DNA of 60,257 nt from a bacterium (lineage in GTDB: Bacteria; Hydrothermota; UBA3073; JACQXS01; JAGMCI01): positions 1 to 60,257 of the forward strand of contig JASEGA010000010.1 of the NCBI GenBank assembly GCA_030018315.1, given 5' to 3'. The position numbers and the translations under genes are program-made. Under the pieces are notes generated by a model. That model worked only from the letters and a program-made list of their open reading frames with translations, searched no databases and was not told where the DNA came from. Shown piece after piece: positions 29,617-48,971 of this stretch; within the stretch, counting starts at the first letter, position 1; every line of letters begins with the position of its first letter.

Positions 29617-31043
29617 TTTGAGGTCGCACTTCTTAAAAATGTTATTGCCCTATCTAATCTTTGAATTACTGCATCTTTACCAAGAATATCAGTAATATGA
29701 AAAAGACTCGGTCCAACTGTTTTACCAGTTAAAGCAAGTCTTATCGGATGTATGAGTAGCGCCGCTTTTATACCAAACTCCAAAGCTAACTCTCTTACAG
29801 TTCGCTCTACAGATTCTATATTAAATTCTTCTAACTTTGAAAGCCTATCTTTAAGCAGTGAAAGCCTCGCTTGAGTCTCCTTATGATTAAAGTAATTCTC
29901 AATACCATCTTTGTCGTATTCAACTGGGGGTTTGAAGAAATAGTCGCCAAGTGCAAAAAAATCAGTCAATTTACGCATCCTATCTTTTAAAATGCCAATC
30001 ACTTTCAACCCGTATTCCTTGTTAGCTACCAGTTGCTGGCTATCGGTAGTAGGTAAAAAAGATAAAAGTCTATCAAATAAATCTTCATTGCTCAATCTAT
30101 TTATATACTCTCCGTTCATCCATTCAAGTTTCTTAAAGTCAAAGACTGAATTTGTTTTACTCAAGTTGTCAAGCGAAAACAAGCTTATAAGTTCAGATAT
30201 AGATAGAATTTCTCTGTCTCCACCAGGTGACCAGCCAAGTAGGGCAAGGAAGTTTACAAATGCTTCAGGTAAAATACCGTCTTTTCTGTAATCAAGGACT
30301 GAGACAGCACCATGACGCTTTGAGAGCTTTGAACGGTCATGTCCAAGAATTAACGGGAGATGTATAAATTTGGGAGGCGACCAACCAAATGCCTTGTACA
30401 GGAGAATTTGCTTAAAAGTATTTGAGATGTGGTCTTCACCTCTTATTACATGAGTTATATTAAATTCGTGGTCATCAACTACACACGCAAAATTATAAGA
30501 AGGACTGCCATCAGATTTTAGGATTACAAAATCTTCTATGTCATTTGAACTCCTTTTAAGGACACCATGCAGACCATCTTCAAAATTAACCTCCATTTCC
30601 GGAACACAGAATCGGATAGCCTTGGGTCTTTTTTTGAATTCGGCTTTCTGAGTATCGGATAAATCAAGACACCTCCTATCGTATTTCCAAGCCCCTTTTT
30701 GGGCGACGACTTTTTTCTTCCTATCTTCAAGCTCTTCATGAGTACAATAGCAAAAGTAGCAAGCCCCATTTTTAAGAAGTAAATTTGCATATTTCTTGTA
30801 GATTGAGAACCTGTCAGATTGAAAATAAGGACCCTCATCCCATTCTAAACCAAGCCATTTTAAGCTTTCCAATATTGCATCGGTCATTGTAGAAGTTGAC
30901 CTATTTACATCAGTATCTTCAATTCTTAGGATAAACTTGCCGCCTTCTCCTCTTGCAAAAAGCCAGTTATACAGGGCAGTACGTGCAGTCCCTACATGCA
31001 AAAAACCAGTTGGCGACGGGGCTATTCTAACTCTTGGTTTCAT
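29607..31043 (-). CDS. gltX: Glutamyl-tRNA synthetase
   Basis: 478 residues, class I aaRS. HIGH motif in PSPTGFLHVGTARTALYNWL, FILRIEDTDVNRS, the CP region, VIRGEDHISNTFKQIL, and a KMSKS-like KLSKRHGAVSV loop. With GatB in the window it may also charge tRNA(Gln). First gene of gltX-yjbQ-zinc ribbon-leuC-leuD. The -10 box ends 7 bases before the ATG, so the message is probably leaderless; no Shine-Dalgarno sequence is present. Confidence 0.97.
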   Translation of the reverse strand: MKPRVRIAPSPTGFLHVGTARTALYNWLFARGEGGKFILRIEDTDVNRSTSTMTDAILESLKWLGLEWDEGPYFQSDRFSIYKKYANLLLKNGACYFCYCTHEELEDRKKKVVAQKGAWKYDRRCLDLSDTQKAEFKKRPKAIRFCVPEMEVNFEDGLHGVLKRSSNDIEDFVILKSDGSPSYNFACVVDDHEFNITHVIRGEDHISNTFKQILLYKAFGWSPPKFIHLPLILGHDRSKLSKRHGAVSVLDYRKDGILPEAFVNFLALLGWSPGGDREILSISELISLFSLDNLSKTNSVFDFKKLEWMNGEYINRLSNEDLFDRLLSFLPTTDSQQLVANKEYGLKVIGILKDRMRKLTDFFALGDYFFKPPVEYDKDGIENYFNHKETQARLSLLKDRLSKLEEFNIESVERTVRELALEFGIKAALLIHPIRLALTGKTVGPSLFHITDILGKDAVIQRLDRAITFLRSATSKCR

Positions 31044-31050
31044 TAGTTAT

Positions 31051-31079
31051 AAAATACATTATTAGTCGTCAAAAGTCAA
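31051..31079 (-). promoter_or_regulatory. Promoter of gltX operon
   Basis: On the minus strand TTGACT (31079-31074), 17-base spacer, TATTTT (31056-31051). Seven bases separate the -10 box from the gltX ATG at 31043. Confidence 0.65.
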
Positions 31080-31090
31080 GGATTTTTATA

Positions 31091-31119
31091 TTGACTTGTA
31101 TATCTGTATAAGATATATT
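31091..31119 (+). promoter_or_regulatory. Promoter of the glycosyltransferase operon
   Basis: TTGACT at 31091-31096, 17-base spacer, TATATT at 31114-31119. The ATG at 31127 is 7 bases beyond, so a leaderless mRNA is predicted. Divergent from the gltX promoter, 12 bases away. Confidence 0.7.
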
Positions 31120-31126
31120 TAAAATT

Positions 31127-32044
31127 ATGACACGTGTTAACACATCTGTTATTATACCCACACATAATCGGGCATATATATTAAAATCATGCCTTAACTC
31201 TTTACTTAACCAGACTGTACAAGACTACGAAATAATAATAGTGGACGATGCATCAAAAGACGAAACACCAAAGTTGGTGAAGTATTTTATAAGCACTAAG
31301 AATAAAAATATAAAATACTTAAGACTTGATAAACAAAGTGGTCCATATGCTGCGAGAAATATAGGAATTAAAGAAGCAGAAGGGGACATTATAATTTTTA
31401 TAGATTCTGATATTATTGTACATCCAAGATTTGTAGAAGACCATTTGAGATCGCATAAAAAGAACAAAAAAATTTATGTACAAGGGATGTTTAAATATAC
31501 CTATAAAATAGGAAATTTTAATTTCTATTATCCTAATGCATTTTGTATGGGAGCTTTTGCTACTGGAAATGTTTCTGTAAGGAAAGTTTGGCTTGAAGAG
31601 GTAGGAAGATTCAGTGACTTTGGTTCAATTATGGGGTATAAAGATATGGCGATGGGAATAAAACTTAGAGAGTTAGGAATAAAACCAGTATATGCATTTT
31701 TGAGATGTAAAGCATATCATATAGATAAGTATCCCGATGAGAGTTATTTTATAGAGTATTTTGGGAAAGAAATACAAAGAGGGAATAGTGGTTATTCTCT
31801 ATTAAAAAAATACGGAAAGTTAGGTAAAAAGTATTTTAATATAAATAGGATAATGTTTATCTCTAAACTATTTAAAATTTCTTATTGGGCAGTTAATGGA
31901 ATAAAATATTTGCCAAAACTTAAAGATTTTCCAATCTTACCTATTTTTCACATTCTTAGAGCAATTATGAAGTATAATTATTTGGCGAAAGGAATAAAGG
32001 AAGCAATAAATGAGGACATCGGTCATAATTCCAACATACAATAG
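31127..32044 (+). CDS. Family 2 glycosyltransferase
   Basis: 305 residues, cytoplasmic. GT-A fold with SVIIPTHNRAYILKSCL, EIIIVDDASKDET, GPYAARNIGIKEAEGD and the DxD-like IIFIDSDIIVHP. FSDFGSIMGYKDMAMGIKL is the acceptor-site region (ED motif degenerate). The C-terminus (~235-300) is basic and may bind the membrane surface. It is clearly a tandem duplicate of the next gene, which it overlaps by 35 bp. Likely transfers a sugar in lipopolysaccharide or capsule assembly; donor unknown. Confidence 0.9.
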   Translation: MTRVNTSVIIPTHNRAYILKSCLNSLLNQTVQDYEIIIVDDASKDETPKLVKYFISTKNKNIKYLRLDKQSGPYAARNIGIKEAEGDIIIFIDSDIIVHPRFVEDHLRSHKKNKKIYVQGMFKYTYKIGNFNFYYPNAFCMGAFATGNVSVRKVWLEEVGRFSDFGSIMGYKDMAMGIKLRELGIKPVYAFLRCKAYHIDKYPDESYFIEYFGKEIQRGNSGYSLLKKYGKLGKKYFNINRIMFISKLFKISYWAVNGIKYLPKLKDFPILPIFHILRAIMKYNYLAKGIKEAINEDIGHNSNIQ

Positions 32045-34175
32045 GAAAAATATTCTAACCCATTGTTTGTATAGAATACTTAATCAAACGGTGAAAGATT
32101 ACGAAGTTATAGTTGTTGACGACGGCTCAACTGATGGTACAGAAAAACTGTCTGAAATTAATAAAATAAAATATATAAAACTTAATGAGAGAAAAGGCCC
32201 TATAGCTGCAAGAAACATAGGAATAAAAAATGCTGAAGGTGAAATCATAATTTTTCTTGACTCTGATGTCCTTGTTTCAGAAAACTTTGTAGAAGACCAT
32301 GTTAAACTTCATTCTCTGAAGGATCCTGTTGGAAAAAATAACTTAATAGTTCAAGGTGTTGTCCGCCATATAAAGAAACCGGAAGATTTTGGCAAATTTT
32401 CATTACTCATAGATGGAGTTTGTTTTACTGGGCTTATCACTCAAAATGTCTCTATTCGTAAAGAATGGATTGTAAAAGTTGGTAGCTTTGATGAATCACT
32501 TACAACTGAAGGTTATGAAGATGTTGATATTGGGAGAAAATTAAAACAATTTGGCTTACATACAATATATGTGGTCAGGAAGTGTAGAGCTTGGCATGTA
32601 GATGGAAAACCAAGTATAAAAGCGTTAAAGCAAAGATTTAATCAAGTCTACTTACAAGCAAAAAATTCATTATTATTGGCGAATAAATACGGGAAATTTG
32701 CACATTTTCGTTATGTTAAATCAAACTGGATATTATTCATTTCTAATTTTTTTGAGACTCATAAATGGGCAGAAAAAGGAAGTACACTAAACTCACTTGT
32801 AAAACTTCATGATTCACCAATATTAGTATTATACCCATTGATTAAACAAATTATAAAATATCATTACAGGGCAAAAGGAATAAGGGATATAAGACACCAG
32901 ATGTCAGATGTAAAAAGTGAAAATGTAAAAGTTAGAAATCAGGATACACAGAGATTGCTTCGTCGCTTTGCTCCTCGCAATGACGGGCGGGATAAAACTT
33001 TTAACTTCTTATTTTTAAGCAACTGCTACGGAGAAGACCGCTCTGCTGCGTTAATTGCACAGGAACTTAAAAAATTAAAGCCAAATATTGAAGTCTTTGG
33101 TGCACCGCTTATATCACAAGGTGAAGAATACGAAAAGAGAGGCATCCCACTCCTTATAAAGAGTAAAATACCGCCATCAGGTGGATTTCCTACAAGAAGT
33201 CCTGTAGCTTTATTAAAGGATATTATTACAAGCTTTTATATCCCAATTAGATATTACATAGTTATCAGAAAAATACGAAAAACTGTAGACTATGGTGTAG
33301 TGGTGGGCGATGTATTCTTGCTTGTGATTGGATGGCTTGGGCTTCTTAAGCAACTTTACTTTCTCGCACCTGCTAAATCGGACTACCAAAAGCCACATTA
33401 CAAATTTGAGGAGTGGCTTATACGTAAACTTGCTGTAAGAGTCTTTACACACGACGAGTTTACAGCACAAAATCTGAGAAAAAAATCAATATCAGCATCG
33501 TTCTTGGGAAACCCAATGATTGATGAACTCCACCCAGAAGGTAATTTTTCCGCAGGATCCTCTAGAGATGGTATACCAGAAAAAAAGTTGATTGGAATTC
33601 TGCCCGGGTCAAGAGTAGAAGCGTATAAAAATTTCTTAAAAATATTGGAAGTAGTTGAGTTAATATCAAATCTTAGGAACGATTTAGCATTTGCTGCTGC
33701 TATTCCAGGTGTACTTAGTTTTAAAAAATTAATAAAACTCTCAAAGAAAAGTGGATGGCAGAGTACATTGGAAATACATCAATCAGAGTTTTATAAAGTT
33801 GAAATAGAAAAGAAAGATACTAAAGTGTTACTTTTATCCAATGCATTTGTAGACATAATCAAGCATTCTGTCCTTATAATTGGATTAGCAGGAACGGCTA
33901 ATGAGCAAGCTGCAGCACTCAGAAAGCCAATAGTATCATTCACAGGAACAGGACCACAAACTTCAAAAATAAGAATGAAGAATCAAGAAAGATTGTTAGG
34001 CGGTTGCTTGAAATTTGTCAATAATTTCCCAAAAGGTGTAGTAAATGAAATCTTGCAATTGCTTGATAATGAGAAATTGAGAAAAACAATGGGTGAAGCT
34101 GGGGTCAAAAAAATGGGAACACCAGGGGGGGCAAAAAAGATTGCAAAATTATTAGATACACTCATTGAAGGCTAA
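32010..34175 (+). CDS. Fusion of GT2 glycosyltransferase and lipid-A-disaccharide-synthase-like domain
   Basis: 721 residues. Residues 1-290 form a GT2 domain (SVIIPTYNRKNILTHCL, VIVVDDGSTDGTE, IIFLDSDVLVSENF, TEGYEDVDIGRKLKQFG). Residues ~334-721 match the lipid-A-disaccharide synthase-related family: FLSNCYGEDRSAALIAQEL, KQLYFLAPAKSDYQKPH, GILPGSRVEAY, IIGLAGTANEQAAALRKPIV. The linker (~295-333) reads like translated spacer DNA and includes a family A palindrome as RLLRRFAPRND (315-325). No stop or ATG separates the halves, though an in-frame TTG exists at 32955. Two GGATCC-type palindromes may lie at residues 103-108 and 514-518. The LpxB-like half is not a canonical LpxB. Confidence 0.85.
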   Translation: MRTSVIIPTYNRKNILTHCLYRILNQTVKDYEVIVVDDGSTDGTEKLSEINKIKYIKLNERKGPIAARNIGIKNAEGEIIIFLDSDVLVSENFVEDHVKLHSLKDPVGKNNLIVQGVVRHIKKPEDFGKFSLLIDGVCFTGLITQNVSIRKEWIVKVGSFDESLTTEGYEDVDIGRKLKQFGLHTIYVVRKCRAWHVDGKPSIKALKQRFNQVYLQAKNSLLLANKYGKFAHFRYVKSNWILFISNFFETHKWAEKGSTLNSLVKLHDSPILVLYPLIKQIIKYHYRAKGIRDIRHQMSDVKSENVKVRNQDTQRLLRRFAPRNDGRDKTFNFLFLSNCYGEDRSAALIAQELKKLKPNIEVFGAPLISQGEEYEKRGIPLLIKSKIPPSGGFPTRSPVALLKDIITSFYIPIRYYIVIRKIRKTVDYGVVVGDVFLLVIGWLGLLKQLYFLAPAKSDYQKPHYKFEEWLIRKLAVRVFTHDEFTAQNLRKKSISASFLGNPMIDELHPEGNFSAGSSRDGIPEKKLIGILPGSRVEAYKNFLKILEVVELISNLRNDLAFAAAIPGVLSFKKLIKLSKKSGWQSTLEIHQSEFYKVEIEKKDTKVLLLSNAFVDIIKHSVLIIGLAGTANEQAAALRKPIVSFTGTGPQTSKIRMKNQERLLGGCLKFVNNFPKGVVNEILQLLDNEKLRKTMGEAGVKKMGTPGGAKKIAKLLDTLIEG
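32316..32334 (+). repeat. Possible family B palindrome in the GT2 domain
   Basis: CTGAAGGATCCTGTTGGAA resembles the GGATCC-centred palindrome in archease and gatB and encodes LKDPVG here. Confidence 0.35.
32951..32984. repeat. Family A palindromic repeat forming the fusion linker
   Basis: GAGATTGCTTC, then GTCGCTTTGCT, then CCTCGCAATGAC. It is in frame inside the GT2-LpxB-like gene. The same element in reverse orientation lies in amrS (48608-48640). Confidence 0.8.
33549..33566 (+). repeat. Possible family B palindrome in the LpxB-like domain
   Basis: TCCGCAGGATCCTCTAGA matches the left half of the GGATCC palindrome exactly and encodes SAGSSR in a loop before the conserved LIGILPGSR. Confidence 0.4.
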
Positions 34176-34199
34176 ATTACTACTTTTACCATTCAGAAT

Positions 34200-35264
34200 T
34201 TAGCATTTTTCCATACTGTCCTTCATACCACTTATAATTCCCATACCTGCCCAAAATAGAATCCCTAACCCTATAACATATGGAGTATTGTCTGCTATAT
34301 TATGAATCAGAACATTAAGGAAAGAAGCAAGTAAGGCAGCTGATATCCATCTCTTAAAGTCTATGTTTCTTTTATAAATCTGCCAACCCCATCTTGTGAG
34401 TATTATAAATATTAACATAAGAACTAAAAAACCTATAATTCCAGACTCTACTAAAAAATTGAGATACATGCAGTGAATGTAGTGAGGACCTTTATAACAG
34501 TAGCTAGGTAAAGCATAATTTTCATAAAGTAAATAAAAGTTATGTATACCTACACCTGTTAAAATGCTATGCTCTTTCCACATTCTTATTCCAGGTATGA
34601 CAGTCACTTTTCTCTTTATGTCACCGGATAAGTAAGATGTATCCAAGAACCTTGTTTTTAGGGGAGTAAAAATAAAACATATTACTATCAAAATAATGGG
34701 TAAAATAATGGCTGCTACTTTTTTATTGAGAAGGCAGAAGAGAAAAATAATAGAAATTATGAGACTTATAGCTGGACCACGGGATAAAGTAAGAAAGAAA
34801 GATACAAGACTTAAAATTATAGTTGTTACTAAAAAAATTCTCTTATAACCTTTTATAAAGAAGGAAATAAAAATAGGAATAGTAAAGGCAAGGAAAGATG
34901 ATAAAATCAGTGTATTATAACAAATAGAATTTATTCGCCCACCCTGCATAGGAGCTATGATTGGAATACCTTTTATTACAAAACTTAGCTTTGTAAAATA
35001 TTGAAAAATACCTATAATAGAAATAGCACATGCACAATAGGATAAGAAATCGGTTAATTTATTGAAATCATTTTCATTTTTTAAAAGGGTCTTTGAGAGA
35101 AAGTATGAAATGAGATAACTTATAAATAATGACCCAGCAATAAAACTATGAACTTTGTAAACAGCAAAAGTAGAAGAAAGAAAAATAGCTCCAAGAAGAG
35201 AAAGTTGAACTTTATCAAGTAGGTTTAATGAGAATCTCGTCCGTGACACAAGAAAAAAAAACAA
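34200..35264 (-). CDS. O-antigen ligase/polymerase-like membrane protein
   Basis: 354 residues from a TTG at 35264, about ten membrane helices. The periplasmic loop region with RMWKEHSILTGVGIHNFYLL and HCMYLNFLVESGIIGFLVL matches the Wzy/WaaL C-terminal pattern. It probably joins or polymerises surface polysaccharide. The reading frame stays open upstream of the TTG for about 57 codons and encodes another hydrophobic stretch (GCFLSALLFTSISPYIVV) without any ATG, GTG or TTG. The true N-terminal helix may thus have lost its start codon, or a rare start is used. Confidence 0.75.
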   Translation of the reverse strand: MFFFLVSRTRFSLNLLDKVQLSLLGAIFLSSTFAVYKVHSFIAGSLFISYLISYFLSKTLLKNENDFNKLTDFLSYCACAISIIGIFQYFTKLSFVIKGIPIIAPMQGGRINSICYNTLILSSFLAFTIPIFISFFIKGYKRIFLVTTIILSLVSFFLTLSRGPAISLIISIIFLFCLLNKKVAAIILPIILIVICFIFTPLKTRFLDTSYLSGDIKRKVTVIPGIRMWKEHSILTGVGIHNFYLLYENYALPSYCYKGPHYIHCMYLNFLVESGIIGFLVLMLIFIILTRWGWQIYKRNIDFKRWISAALLASFLNVLIHNIADNTPYVIGLGILFWAGMGIISGMKDSMEKC

Positions 35265-35437
35265 AGCAGAAATTAAAAAGGCTACTACAATGTAAGGTGA
35301 AATTGAAGTAAATAAGAGAGCACTTAAAAAGCAGCCGACAGATGTCCGATGGCAGATGTGAGATTTATCTCTATTTTCCGTTCTCTGAATTCTAATTTTT
35401 ATTTTCTATTCTCTAAATTCTGATTTCCGGTTTTGTT

Positions 35438-37216
35438 TTAAGACAGCTCTTTCCTTATAAGCATTTTATATAAACCTTCATTTTTAAGCAATTCTTGATG
35501 AGTCCCCTCCTCCACTATTCTTCCATTATCCATTACGATTATTTTGTCACAATTATAGATAGTAGAGAGTCTATGGGCTATGACAATTGCAGTCCTACCT
35601 TTGAGTAACCGCTCTATTGCTTCGTGAACTTTATTCTCAGATTCAGGATCTAAGTGAGATGTAGCCTCATCAAATATGAGGATTTCTGGATTCTTATAAA
35701 GCGCTCTCGCAATTGCTATCCTTTGACGCTCACCACCCGAGAGTTTCACTCCCCTCTCCCCTATCACAGTATCGTAGCCATAGGGAAGTCTCTCAATAAA
35801 CTCGTGTGCATTTGCTAAATTTGCAGCCATACGAACAGCTTCAGGTTTAGCAGTAGTATCACCGCAAGCAATATTATTGAATACAGTATCATTAAAAAGG
35901 ATTGGCTCTTGTGTGACAAGTCCAATTAGCCCCCTAAGATTTTTAAGTGAGATTTTCCTCATATCAAAACCGTCGATTTCAATTGAGCCTTGGGTAGGGT
36001 CATAGAAACGAGCAAGTAGGTCTGTAATTGTAGATTTGCCAGCACCTGACGGACCCACAAGAGCAACATTATCACCTTTTTTTATACTAAATGTTACTCC
36101 GTGAATTACTTCTCTTGAGTGGTCGTAGCCAAAACGTACATCTCTAAATACAATTTCTTTATCAAAATGAGTGAGCGAAATTGGACTTTCTGCTTCCTTA
36201 ACAGTAGGCTTGGTATCTAATATTTTTTTTATTCTTAACATTGCTTGGATTCCTTGTTGTATTTCTACATTGGCTTTAGAAAGTTGCTTCAGAGGCTGCA
36301 TCATGAACAAGGCACATGCCAAAAAGATAAGAAATCTGTCAGCAGAAAGTGTATTAATAACAAATATCTGATACCCACCATAACTTATGAGAATACAAGC
36401 ACCAAATGCAATTATGAGCTCAGAAAGTGGAACACCAAGGAGACCAATCTTTTCAAACTTGAGAGCTGATTTCAAATAATCACGTGTAGATTTAAAAAAT
36501 TTATAAAACTCAAATTTATCCATAGAAAAAGCCTTCACTATCTTTATACCGGACACAGTCTCGCTAATCACAGATGTAATCTTGCCCATATCTTCTTGAA
36601 CTCTATCACTTCTTTCACGCAATTTTTTACCAAGTGAGTTGATAAGCCATGTTATAACAGGAAAAGTAACAGTAGCTACAAGAAGAAGTCTCCATGAAAG
36701 ATAAAAGGCAAAACAGAAATAAGCAAGAACAAGAAGCAACTCTTTTGCAAACACAAGAAAACCATTTTTTAAAGCACCTTTTATTTTTGTTATATCATTT
36801 GTTAGCCTCGAAATAATAATGCCAGATTTTGTTCTGTAAAAATAATCCAAAGAAAGGATATGAAGATGAGCATATGTATTATCCCTTAATTGTTTTGTAA
36901 TATGCTCTTCAACTGAAGCTCCAATGTAGCCGTGTAAATAATCAAATATACCTTTAAATAGAAAAATAAGAATAAGAACTACCTGTAGTCTCACAAATGC
37001 TTGTACCTTTGAGCTGCTGAGAAACCATAAGCTAAACTTAGCTAAAAGATCGCTCTTTAAGGAGAGAAAAGATTGGCTATCATAAAATATAGCGTGTAGG
37101 AAGGGGGATAGTAAAGAAAGAGAAAAACTTGAAAGTAGTGCAAAAATGAGCATAAATATGAAACAAAGTAAAATCTTTACAGTGTAAGGTTTAAAATATG
37201 AGAAAAAGAACTTCAC
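35438..37216 (-). CDS. MsbA-like ABC exporter (permease-ATPase fusion)
   Basis: 592 residues: six-helix type IV exporter domain (~1-310), then an ATPase domain with Walker A GPSGAGKST, Q-loop VTQEPILFNDTVFNNI, signature LSGGERQRIAIARAL, Walker B ILIFDEATSHLD and the H-loop IVIAHRLSTI. By family and by its glycosyltransferase neighbours it is likely to flip lipid A core or a lipid-linked glycan. Overlaps the upstream SANT/TPR gene by 4 bp. Confidence 0.92.
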   Translation of the reverse strand: MKFFFSYFKPYTVKILLCFIFMLIFALLSSFSLSLLSPFLHAIFYDSQSFLSLKSDLLAKFSLWFLSSSKVQAFVRLQVVLILIFLFKGIFDYLHGYIGASVEEHITKQLRDNTYAHLHILSLDYFYRTKSGIIISRLTNDITKIKGALKNGFLVFAKELLLVLAYFCFAFYLSWRLLLVATVTFPVITWLINSLGKKLRERSDRVQEDMGKITSVISETVSGIKIVKAFSMDKFEFYKFFKSTRDYLKSALKFEKIGLLGVPLSELIIAFGACILISYGGYQIFVINTLSADRFLIFLACALFMMQPLKQLSKANVEIQQGIQAMLRIKKILDTKPTVKEAESPISLTHFDKEIVFRDVRFGYDHSREVIHGVTFSIKKGDNVALVGPSGAGKSTITDLLARFYDPTQGSIEIDGFDMRKISLKNLRGLIGLVTQEPILFNDTVFNNIACGDTTAKPEAVRMAANLANAHEFIERLPYGYDTVIGERGVKLSGGERQRIAIARALYKNPEILIFDEATSHLDPESENKVHEAIERLLKGRTAIVIAHRLSTIYNCDKIIVMDNGRIVEEGTHQELLKNEGLYKMLIRKELS

Positions 37217-40875: not shown

Positions 40876-41553
40876 GTGGGAAAGATAAAGAAAATCGTAA
40901 TAGCTACAAAAAATCTTGATAAATTTAGCGAGATTAAAACAATTCTAAAAGAGCTACCAGTTGAATTCATTAATTTAAGAAATACTATTTTACCTGAGGA
41001 ACGTGGTAATAGTTTAGAAGAAAATGCAATTATAAAGGCAGAAACTGGTGCTAAGCTCATGCATACCATTTCTATCAGTGACGATACTGGATTAGAAGTA
41101 GATGCACTCAATGGGTTACCAGGAGTTTATTCATCACGTTTTGCTGGCATTAATGTTACCCATCCCTCTGTCATTCTGAGCAAAGCAAAAGAATCTCCTC
41201 ATAATATAAGTTATGAGGAGAATAGAAAAAAGCTTTTGAAACTACTTGAATCAAAACCAATGAATGAAAGGAAAGCTAAATTCAGATGTGTAGTAGCAGT
41301 CGCACAGATGGGAAAACGAACAAAAATATTTGAGGGAAAAGTTTACGGCTATATAACTGAAGAGGAACGCGGTAAGTTCGGATTTGGTTACGACTCAATA
41401 TTTATGGTTCCAAAATTAGGTAAAACATTTGCAGAACTGCCACCAGAGAAGAAGAATAAAATATCACACAGAGCACTTGCTCTTTTAAAAGCAAAAAAAT
41501 ATCTGAAAAATCAGTTATTAGTTGGGAATCAGAGTGAAAATAAAAAACACTAA
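40876..41553 (+). CDS. rdgB: XTP/dITP diphosphatase (Ham1/RdgB), with a repeat-encoded insertion
   Basis: 225 residues from a GTG start. It hydrolyses non-canonical purine nucleoside triphosphates (dITP, XTP). Family features are IVIATKNLDKFSEIK, ISDDTGLEVDALNGLPGVYS, GKFGFGYDSIF and the C-terminal SHRALALLKA. The family is usually ~195-205 residues. About 17 extra residues lie between RFAGINV and SYEENRKKLL and include SVILSKAKES, encoded by a family A variant repeat. The C-terminal tail NQLLVGNQSENKKH is also extra. Confidence 0.94.
   Translation: MGKIKKIVIATKNLDKFSEIKTILKELPVEFINLRNTILPEERGNSLEENAIIKAETGAKLMHTISISDDTGLEVDALNGLPGVYSSRFAGINVTHPSVILSKAKESPHNISYEENRKKLLKLLESKPMNERKAKFRCVVAVAQMGKRTKIFEGKVYGYITEEERGKFGFGYDSIFMVPKLGKTFAELPPEKKNKISHRALALLKAKKYLKNQLLVGNQSENKKH
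41169..41197 (+). repeat. Family A variant (CATTCTGAG type) inside rdgB
   Basis: TGTCATTCTGAG, then CAAAGCAAAA, then GAATCTC. In frame, it encodes VILSKAKES in a loop. The same variant lies in the opposite orientation at 51886-51910. Confidence 0.75.
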
Positions 41554-47885: not shown

Positions 47886-48971
47886 TTAAACTCTATTGCC
47901 TAAATCACACACTGGAATTGGCTCACCACAATACTTACATCTCCCATTTTCTACATAGTTAAACTCAATTACATAATTATGCCTCTTTATAAGCATTTTC
48001 TTACAATTTGGGCAGTAAGTATTCTCATAAGGATGGCCTGTAACATTGCCAATGTAGACAAATTTTAATCCTTTACTTACACCTATTTCTCTTGCATTCT
48101 CAAGTGTCTTTATTGGAGTATAAGAAATATGTTGTAGTTCACAATGCGGAATAAATCTCGTAATATGCCATGGAGTATCGGGACCAAGAGTTTGCTTAAT
48201 CCAATCTGCTATTCTATGGAAAGTTTCAATATCATCATTATAACCTGGAATCACATTTGTCACTACTTCAACCCACATATTCCATTTATGCTTTGCTAAC
48301 TCAGTTACCTCTAATATGCCATTGAATTCGCTAATATTGGCTAATTTTTTATAAAACTTATTTGAAAATCCCTTTATATCTACTCTAAATACATCAAGCC
48401 ATGGCCCTATAACATCAAGAGCTTCAGGTGTGATAAATCCATTAGTCACATAATTAGTATAAAAACCGCTTGCTTTGGCAAGTTTAGCAAAATCAAGAGT
48501 GTACTCAAACCAAACGGTAGGCTCATTATAAGTCCAAGATATGCCAAGACAATTGTATTTATCAGCTATTTTTAACCCATCCTCAGGAGAAATATAATTC
48601 GTATTTTGATTGCTTCGTCGTTTCGCTCCTCGCAATGACAAAAGACTCTTATCTTGTCTGTCGGCGGACAGGAACTTATAATGTGCAATATCCCAATTTT
48701 GACAACCCGGACACCTAAAATTGCATCCAATTGAACCCAATGAAAGCCATTTACTTCCAGGATAGAAATGAAAAATAGGCTTTAGCTCAGCTGGTGAAAT
48801 CATCCAAGTAGATACTTCACCATAAATTAAAGTGTAAAGCTTACCCACCTCATTTAGCCGTGTAGTGCAATAGCCAAGTTTATCCTGAGCAATAATACAC
48901 CTCCGCTGGCAAATGTTGCACCTCACTCTATTATTCTTTAATCTATCGTATAAAAGCGATTCCTTTTTCAT
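47886..48971 (-). CDS. amrS: AmrS-like radical SAM protein with a repeat-encoded insertion
   Basis: 361 residues. The radical SAM cluster is C83-C87-C90 in IGCNFRCPGCQNW. The N-terminus has CNICQRRC and the C-terminus a zinc-ribbon (CPNCKKML and CKYCGEPI), the layout of AmmeMemoRadiSam system AmrS. Residues ~101-124 (SADRQDKSL and SLRGAKRRSNQ) interrupt the alignment just after the cluster and are encoded by two short repeats. No AmrA or AmrB partner is in the window. The promoter predicts a nearly leaderless transcript. Confidence 0.85.
   Translation of the reverse strand: MKKESLLYDRLKNNRVRCNICQRRCIIAQDKLGYCTTRLNEVGKLYTLIYGEVSTWMISPAELKPIFHFYPGSKWLSLGSIGCNFRCPGCQNWDIAHYKFLSADRQDKSLLSLRGAKRRSNQNTNYISPEDGLKIADKYNCLGISWTYNEPTVWFEYTLDFAKLAKASGFYTNYVTNGFITPEALDVIGPWLDVFRVDIKGFSNKFYKKLANISEFNGILEVTELAKHKWNMWVEVVTNVIPGYNDDIETFHRIADWIKQTLGPDTPWHITRFIPHCELQHISYTPIKTLENAREIGVSKGLKFVYIGNVTGHPYENTYCPNCKKMLIKRHNYVIEFNYVENGRCKYCGEPIPVCDLGNRV
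48608..48640. repeat. Family A palindromic repeat inside amrS
   Basis: The plus strand reads GATTGCTTCGTCG then TTTCGCTCCTCGCAATGACA. The coding strand gives SLRGAKRRSNQ. A second short palindrome (CTGTCGGCGGACAG near 48657-48672) lies 15 bases away and adds SADRQ. Both are in frame. Confidence 0.8.

Follow-up and report, generated by a model that had tools for sequence, protein, structure and literature searches.

A GT2 glycosyltransferase and a lipid-A-disaccharide-synthase-related domain joined in one reading frame in a WOR-3 bacterium

Domain fusion and the insertion of Rickettsia palindromic element (RPE)-like repeats are both already known in kind. Escherichia coli K4 chondroitin polymerase (K4CP) joins two GT-A domains. 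LpxB (GT19, TIGR00215) carries LPGSR and GTA-type motifs, which we take to be shared with the lipid-A-disaccharide-synthase-related family TIGR03492. RPEs are palindromic repeats that have been inserted, in frame, in genes unrelated to one another (PMC10969869).

Here we analyse a window of 60,257 nt (contig JASEGA010000010.1 of assembly GCA_030018315.1, positions 1–60,257, forward strand) from a WOR-3 bacterium whose genome, G000, is a 74-contig draft of 1.95 Mb. The window contains a frame that joins a GT2 domain to a TIGR03492 domain. It is best explained as a genuine two-enzyme protein, in which a GT-A (GT2) domain and a GT-B (TIGR03492) domain, separated by a disordered linker and descended from separate genes, serve one surface glycan; we put the probability of this reading at roughly 0.74.

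One open frame with two complete domains

We use GTa for the upstream GT2 gene, GTb for the GT2 domain of the fusion and LPX for the TIGR03492 domain. The relevant features are as follows.

31,127–32,044, forward strand: GTa, a separate GT2 glycosyltransferase gene of 305 amino acids, upstream partner of the fusion
31,996–32,003, forward strand: Shine–Dalgarno-like AAAGGAAG inside the GTa 3′ end, a putative site read from the sequence
32,010–34,175, forward strand: GTb–LPX fusion frame, 721 amino acids, from ORF and profile searches
32,010–32,882, forward strand: GTb, a GT2 (GT-A fold) domain, residues 1–291, its last part being the conserved YHYRAKGI
32,883–33,005, forward strand: translated, spacer-like linker, residues 292–332 (about 41 residues)
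32,952–32,984, forward strand: dispersed palindromic repeat within the linker, reading RLLRRFAPRND
33,006–34,172, forward strand: LPX, a GT-B fold TIGR03492 domain, residues 333–721

The first-pass annotation had described a GT2 domain joined to an LpxB-like domain in one 721-residue frame, and this description holds: the 721 codons form a single frame with an ATG start and no internal stop, and one peptide that would span the linker is SENVKVRNQDTQR. The GT2 profile PF00535 matches residues 4–103 (E 1.4e-31, 110 bits), and assignment to this family is further borne out by GT-A structure matches and by a DSD motif in the alignment, where GTb keeps both DSD and GYED as catalytic-type motifs. 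The C-terminal domain exceeds the curated TIGR03492 cut-off across the whole profile (residues 334–716, 270 bits against 219.2, profile positions 1–393 of 396), whereas its Pfam LpxB match falls below the cut-off (19.3 against 22.6). The catalytic-type LPX motifs LPGSR and GTAxEQ are invariant; across 17 LPX domains the invariant positions include, among others, YGED, GNPM, LPGSR and GTA, as well as the P, S, G, G and F of PPSGGF. The product is predicted to be a bifunctional enzyme with both activities in one polypeptide.

The GTa 3′ end overlaps the start of the fusion frame by 35 nt, and the AGGA of AAAGGAAG ends 8 nt upstream of the ATG at 32,010, which would make it a good putative ribosome-binding site for that start.

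AlphaFold (alignment A1) predicted two confident domains with a disordered linker between them (mean pLDDT 86.8); residues 302–313 of the linker fall below pLDDT 50 and form a break in the model, whose pTM of 0.57 leaves the placement of the domains relative to each other unspecified. In Foldseek searches the N-terminal part matched GT-A enzymes (for example 6p61, target-normalised TM-score 0.85), and GT-B-fold UDP-GlcNAc 2-epimerases (for example 3ot5, 0.69) matched the C-terminal part. A sequence search of the PDB gave 2z86, the E. coli K4 chondroitin polymerase, as the best match to the N-terminal domain and found no solved relative of the TIGR03492 domain.

The fusion is shared by related genomes

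We searched 40 relatives and then ran tblastn on the neighbourhoods, which placed GTa, GTb and LPX in several families of the phylum. A phylum-wide TIGR03492 search (147 genomes) found the GTb–LPX junction fused only in G000, G001, G007 and G008. The three other fused genomes belong to the same order and to two families, one of the three being the only relative from the family of G000; G001 and G008 are candidate division WOR-3 metagenome-assembled genomes (MAGs), and G007, like the relative G002, is an unclassified bacterial MAG. In G001, G007 and G008 all three parts lie in one frame, whose length counted from the earliest start is 1,052–1,072 codons. GTa is fused to GTb in these three and in G002, and is separate in G000.

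Unfused arrangements are also found. In G002, which lies inside the fused genus, LPX overlaps GTb by 26 nt and is not fused to it, so fusion is not essential. In G005 the two genes overlap by 20 nt and the frames are broken or short. The G005 locus (L030, 5287–7737) has short or broken GTa, GTb and LPX frames, with a long A run near the first junction; this may be decay or an assembly error. Families f1 and f2, the two closest to the window, have the gene order GTa, GTb, LPX. Most other genomes that carry these parts have them as separate neighbours: in G003, G006, G009, G011, G013, G014, G028 and G039 the order is LPX, GTa, GTb. G022 also has the latter order, but there a GT4 gene separates GTa from GTb, and in G004, G010 and G017 LPX is on a different contig from the GT2 genes found. 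Stand-alone TIGR03492 proteins elsewhere in the phylum have 364–462 codons. Two of 14 control genomes had a TIGR03492 match over the cut-off, and the search gives matches in Synechococcus elongatus, Deinobacterium chartae and Bacteroides ihuae. A maximum-likelihood LPX tree placed f1 and f2 together with modest support (85/87), and on this small tree the fused state must change no fewer than two times, which is compatible both with a single gain and later losses and with two gains.

These distributions bear on how the fusion arose. The earlier proposal was that loss of a stop turned spacer into linker and made a new enzyme, which we read as a recent event confined to this genome. The expectation of separate neighbouring genes in deeper relatives is borne out, and the linker is spacer-like and carries a dispersed repeat. 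The same junction, however, is fused in three more genomes from two families, there in a longer, triple version, and the linker position is identical in all fused genomes (alignment), so that sister genomes largely refute a private origin, which we consider improbable. Being common to sister species, the fusion is old and probably functional, not a recent accident. Stop loss across a long spacer is also the less likely step: the nearest unfused state, in G002 and G005, is a pair of overlapping genes, which makes a small indel likelier, and such a pair was probably the nearest ancestor. An assembly or frameshift error joining two genes might be suspected in a 74-contig draft, but with four separately assembled genomes in agreement and both domains complete and under purifying selection, we give it almost no weight.

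Domains are conserved while the linker turns over

Rates were estimated from one sister pair, G007 and G008. Purifying selection on the domains is strong (dN/dS 0.063 for GTa, 0.116 for GTb and 0.167 for LPX), and their dS is 0.27–0.33. The two linkers of the same pair have dN of 0.38 and 0.52 and dS of 1.4 and 1.0; their DNA is identical at 63 of 96 and 45 of 105 positions, as against 777 of 849 for GTb, and their net length change of 42 nt is a multiple of three. Five genomes with fusions contribute eight linkers; none of these has a stop in the joined frame, whereas stops interrupt 15 of the 16 off-frames. Because the linkers are related and single-linker shuffle probabilities range only from 0.035 to 0.20, this open-frame evidence is strong but not independent. 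Linker residues 292–332 are missing from every stand-alone homologue. We read the linkers as free in sequence yet held in frame, a pattern hard to explain unless the joined protein is made and useful.

A different account of the open frame is that it yields mostly two proteins, with LPX started internally, as would be expected from overlapping-gene ancestors. Candidate starts exist: an in-frame ATG at 32,901 and an in-frame TTG at 32,955 (codon 316) with AGGA 10 nt before it. G002 and G005 begin LPX inside the same stretch, and AAAAGGAAT recurs ahead of the linker in relatives. Independent production of LPX would, however, leave the fast-changing linker free, and yet it is in frame in every fused genome; moreover, the GTb–LPX linker of G008 contains no in-frame ATG. 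We therefore regard internal initiation as unlikely and favour a single two-enzyme polypeptide as the product in the cell.

A conserved RNA hairpin was considered as a linker function and rejected, since folding was significant in only some genomes (the GTa–GTb linker of G007, the GTb–LPX linker of G008 and the spacer of G004) and not in the linkers of G000, G001 and G002. Rfam gave no matches in 30,500–36,000. Between 30,950 and 35,500, promoter-like sites occurred at chance level only, and terminator-like sites numbered four where 2.0 were expected, all outside the linker.

Spacer-type text and repeats in and around the linker

The spacer-like texts reported for the linker, AGATGTCAGATG and AAAAGTGAAAATG (32,913–32,925), are present as described, and the repeat noted there is confirmed as a dispersed palindrome: across the 1.95 Mb genome it has about 12 further matches, the best at E 5e-13, and two of these hold an exact copy of the 31-nt core. 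Shuffled versions of this 31-mer had no matches in 460 kb of G000; genome-wide statistics rest on these 460 kb and on 383 kb of G001. Spacer elements were also sought by a k-mer complexity scan, but its counts were discarded, as plain AT-rich sequence was mixed in.

Similar short-unit text lies in the spacers between separate genes of unfused relatives (G004, G009, G011 and G014), which, for the order as a whole, fits the spacer-to-linker idea. That idea stands in part: the two enzymes are indeed joined by a spacer-like linker, but within a fusion that is old, shared and selected.

Spacer-type text is also found within the LPX domain of G001, G002, G007 and G008. G007 and G008 carry an N-terminal LPX insert, EFRVKSKKRKIDSQLSTLNSQL, of which G002 has a shorter form (L023, L024 and L025), at a place where there is no junction, and the LPX domain of G001 contains NYQLPITNYQ.

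In the triple fusion of G001 (L022, 5755–5895 and 6755–6870) both linkers start with nearly identical DNA, even though the GT2 domains ahead of them are only about half identical, which suggests copying between the junctions.

Other genes of G000 carry in-frame insertions. The RdgB/HAM1 pyrophosphatase gene (40,876–41,553, forward strand) has a repeat-like insert at about 41,165–41,204 that adds 17 residues (HPSVILSKAKESPHN region) missing from nine orthologues; it presumably resembles a repeat common in other bacteria, and a second copy was not found in 460 kb of G000. In the AmrS (AmmeMemoRadiSam radical SAM) gene (47,886–48,971, reverse strand) an in-frame copy of the linker repeat at 48,609–48,639 follows the cysteine motif, where about 20 residues are missing from the nine homologues aligned; these homologues, the candidates for an empty site, are only about 36–43% identical. 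The linker repeat is again in frame in a TPR-type protein of 958 codons (L046, 1504–1534).

Two dispersed repeat families thus lie in frame inside other genes of G000, the linker repeat in AmrS and the TPR protein and a second family in RdgB/HAM1, so the linker repeat need not have caused the fusion. It resembles RPEs in having copies scattered through the genome, of which those in AmrS and the TPR protein are in frame, and like them it was probably inserted later, into an existing linker. A broader form of this argument concerns linker origin only and is compatible with the two-enzyme reading: the genes were first joined by a short linker, into which spacer-type text and the repeat were later inserted in frame. 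The text inside LPX (EFRVKSKKRKIDSQLSTLNSQL in G007 and G008, NYQLPITNYQ in G001) and the in-frame repeats in RdgB/HAM1, AmrS and the TPR protein speak for it. Against it, such text is present at every fused junction while the aligned relatives of RdgB/HAM1 and AmrS lack it, and comparable text lies between the genes of the unfused G004, G009, G011 and G014. Wholly later insertion is a real possibility, albeit not our preferred one; we favour a linker drawn from spacer-type DNA.

Locus context points to surface glycan assembly

Two genes in the window adjoin the fusion.

34,200–35,264, reverse strand: O-antigen-ligase-like (Wzy_C) membrane protein, part of the same conserved locus
35,438–37,216, reverse strand: MsbA-like ABC exporter, part of the same conserved locus

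The conserved surroundings across relatives comprise genes for GT4, GT9 heptosyltransferase-like, O-antigen-ligase-like and MsbA-like proteins, and within the window only the last two kinds adjoin the fusion. The fusion falls below the LpxB cut-off and is not the sole candidate for the lipid A step: at E 0.001, TIGR00215 reported only a separate, true LpxB locus in G000 (G000:C1:219091-220185), not the fusion, which argues against the fusion being the lipid A step. LpxC, like LpxB, is present in G000 and relatives. LpxK (PF02606) was not found in G000, and only 2 of 10 genomes yielded a match to it, leaving the lipid carrier uncertain; the lipid A pathway of the order may be unusual, or LpxK may be too diverged for the profile. 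Given the conserved glycan locus and the separate LpxC and LpxB, the best-supported role is sugar addition in surface glycan assembly, as opposed to the lipid A disaccharide step, possibly with LPS core or a similar glycolipid as target. We infer, rather than observe, the sugar, the acceptor and the order of action.

In the mechanism that we propose, GTb and LPX would both act in the assembly of one surface glycan. Most likely they would add sugars to an oligosaccharide that is lipid-linked or of LPS-core type, which the MsbA-like exporter and the ligase-like protein would then export and attach. The domains would have been separate neighbouring genes ancestrally, with the arrangement GTa–GTb–LPX arising in this taxonomic order and its junctions switching between overlapping and in-frame states through small indels. 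The linker would be non-conserved spacer-type DNA, visibly constrained only in remaining open and in frame. Fusion could bring matched dosage, or allow a product to pass from one site to the next.

Discussion

Separate genes, overlapping genes, double fusion and triple fusion form a natural series of how neighbouring enzymes merge, in which the origin of the linker can still be read. The locus links TIGR03492 proteins with two GT2 enzymes and with export and ligation genes, a testable hint that the family helps to build surface glycans as opposed to lipid A. More speculatively, and on balance doubtfully, a fast-changing class of short-unit spacer DNA may be continually rewritten between and inside frames across the order, while small indels switch operon junctions between the overlapping and the fused state; if so, multi-enzyme proteins could always draw their linkers from spacer DNA.

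Compared with known systems, the fusion resembles TIGR03492 proteins, whose whole profile its C-terminal domain matches above the curated cut-off; elsewhere in the phylum these proteins stand alone, whereas here the domain follows a GT2 domain. With LpxB it shares a weak Pfam match and a GT-B-type fold, but it lies below the Pfam cut-off, is not reported by TIGR00215 and coexists with a true LpxB. Like K4CP it has two transferase domains in one chain, although it joins GT-A to GT-B. As with RPEs and intragenic MITEs, palindromic repeats occur in frame in unrelated genes; the G000 repeat, however, is about 31 nt long as against ~150 nt, is read in different frames and, in the linker, sits between enzymes and not inside one.
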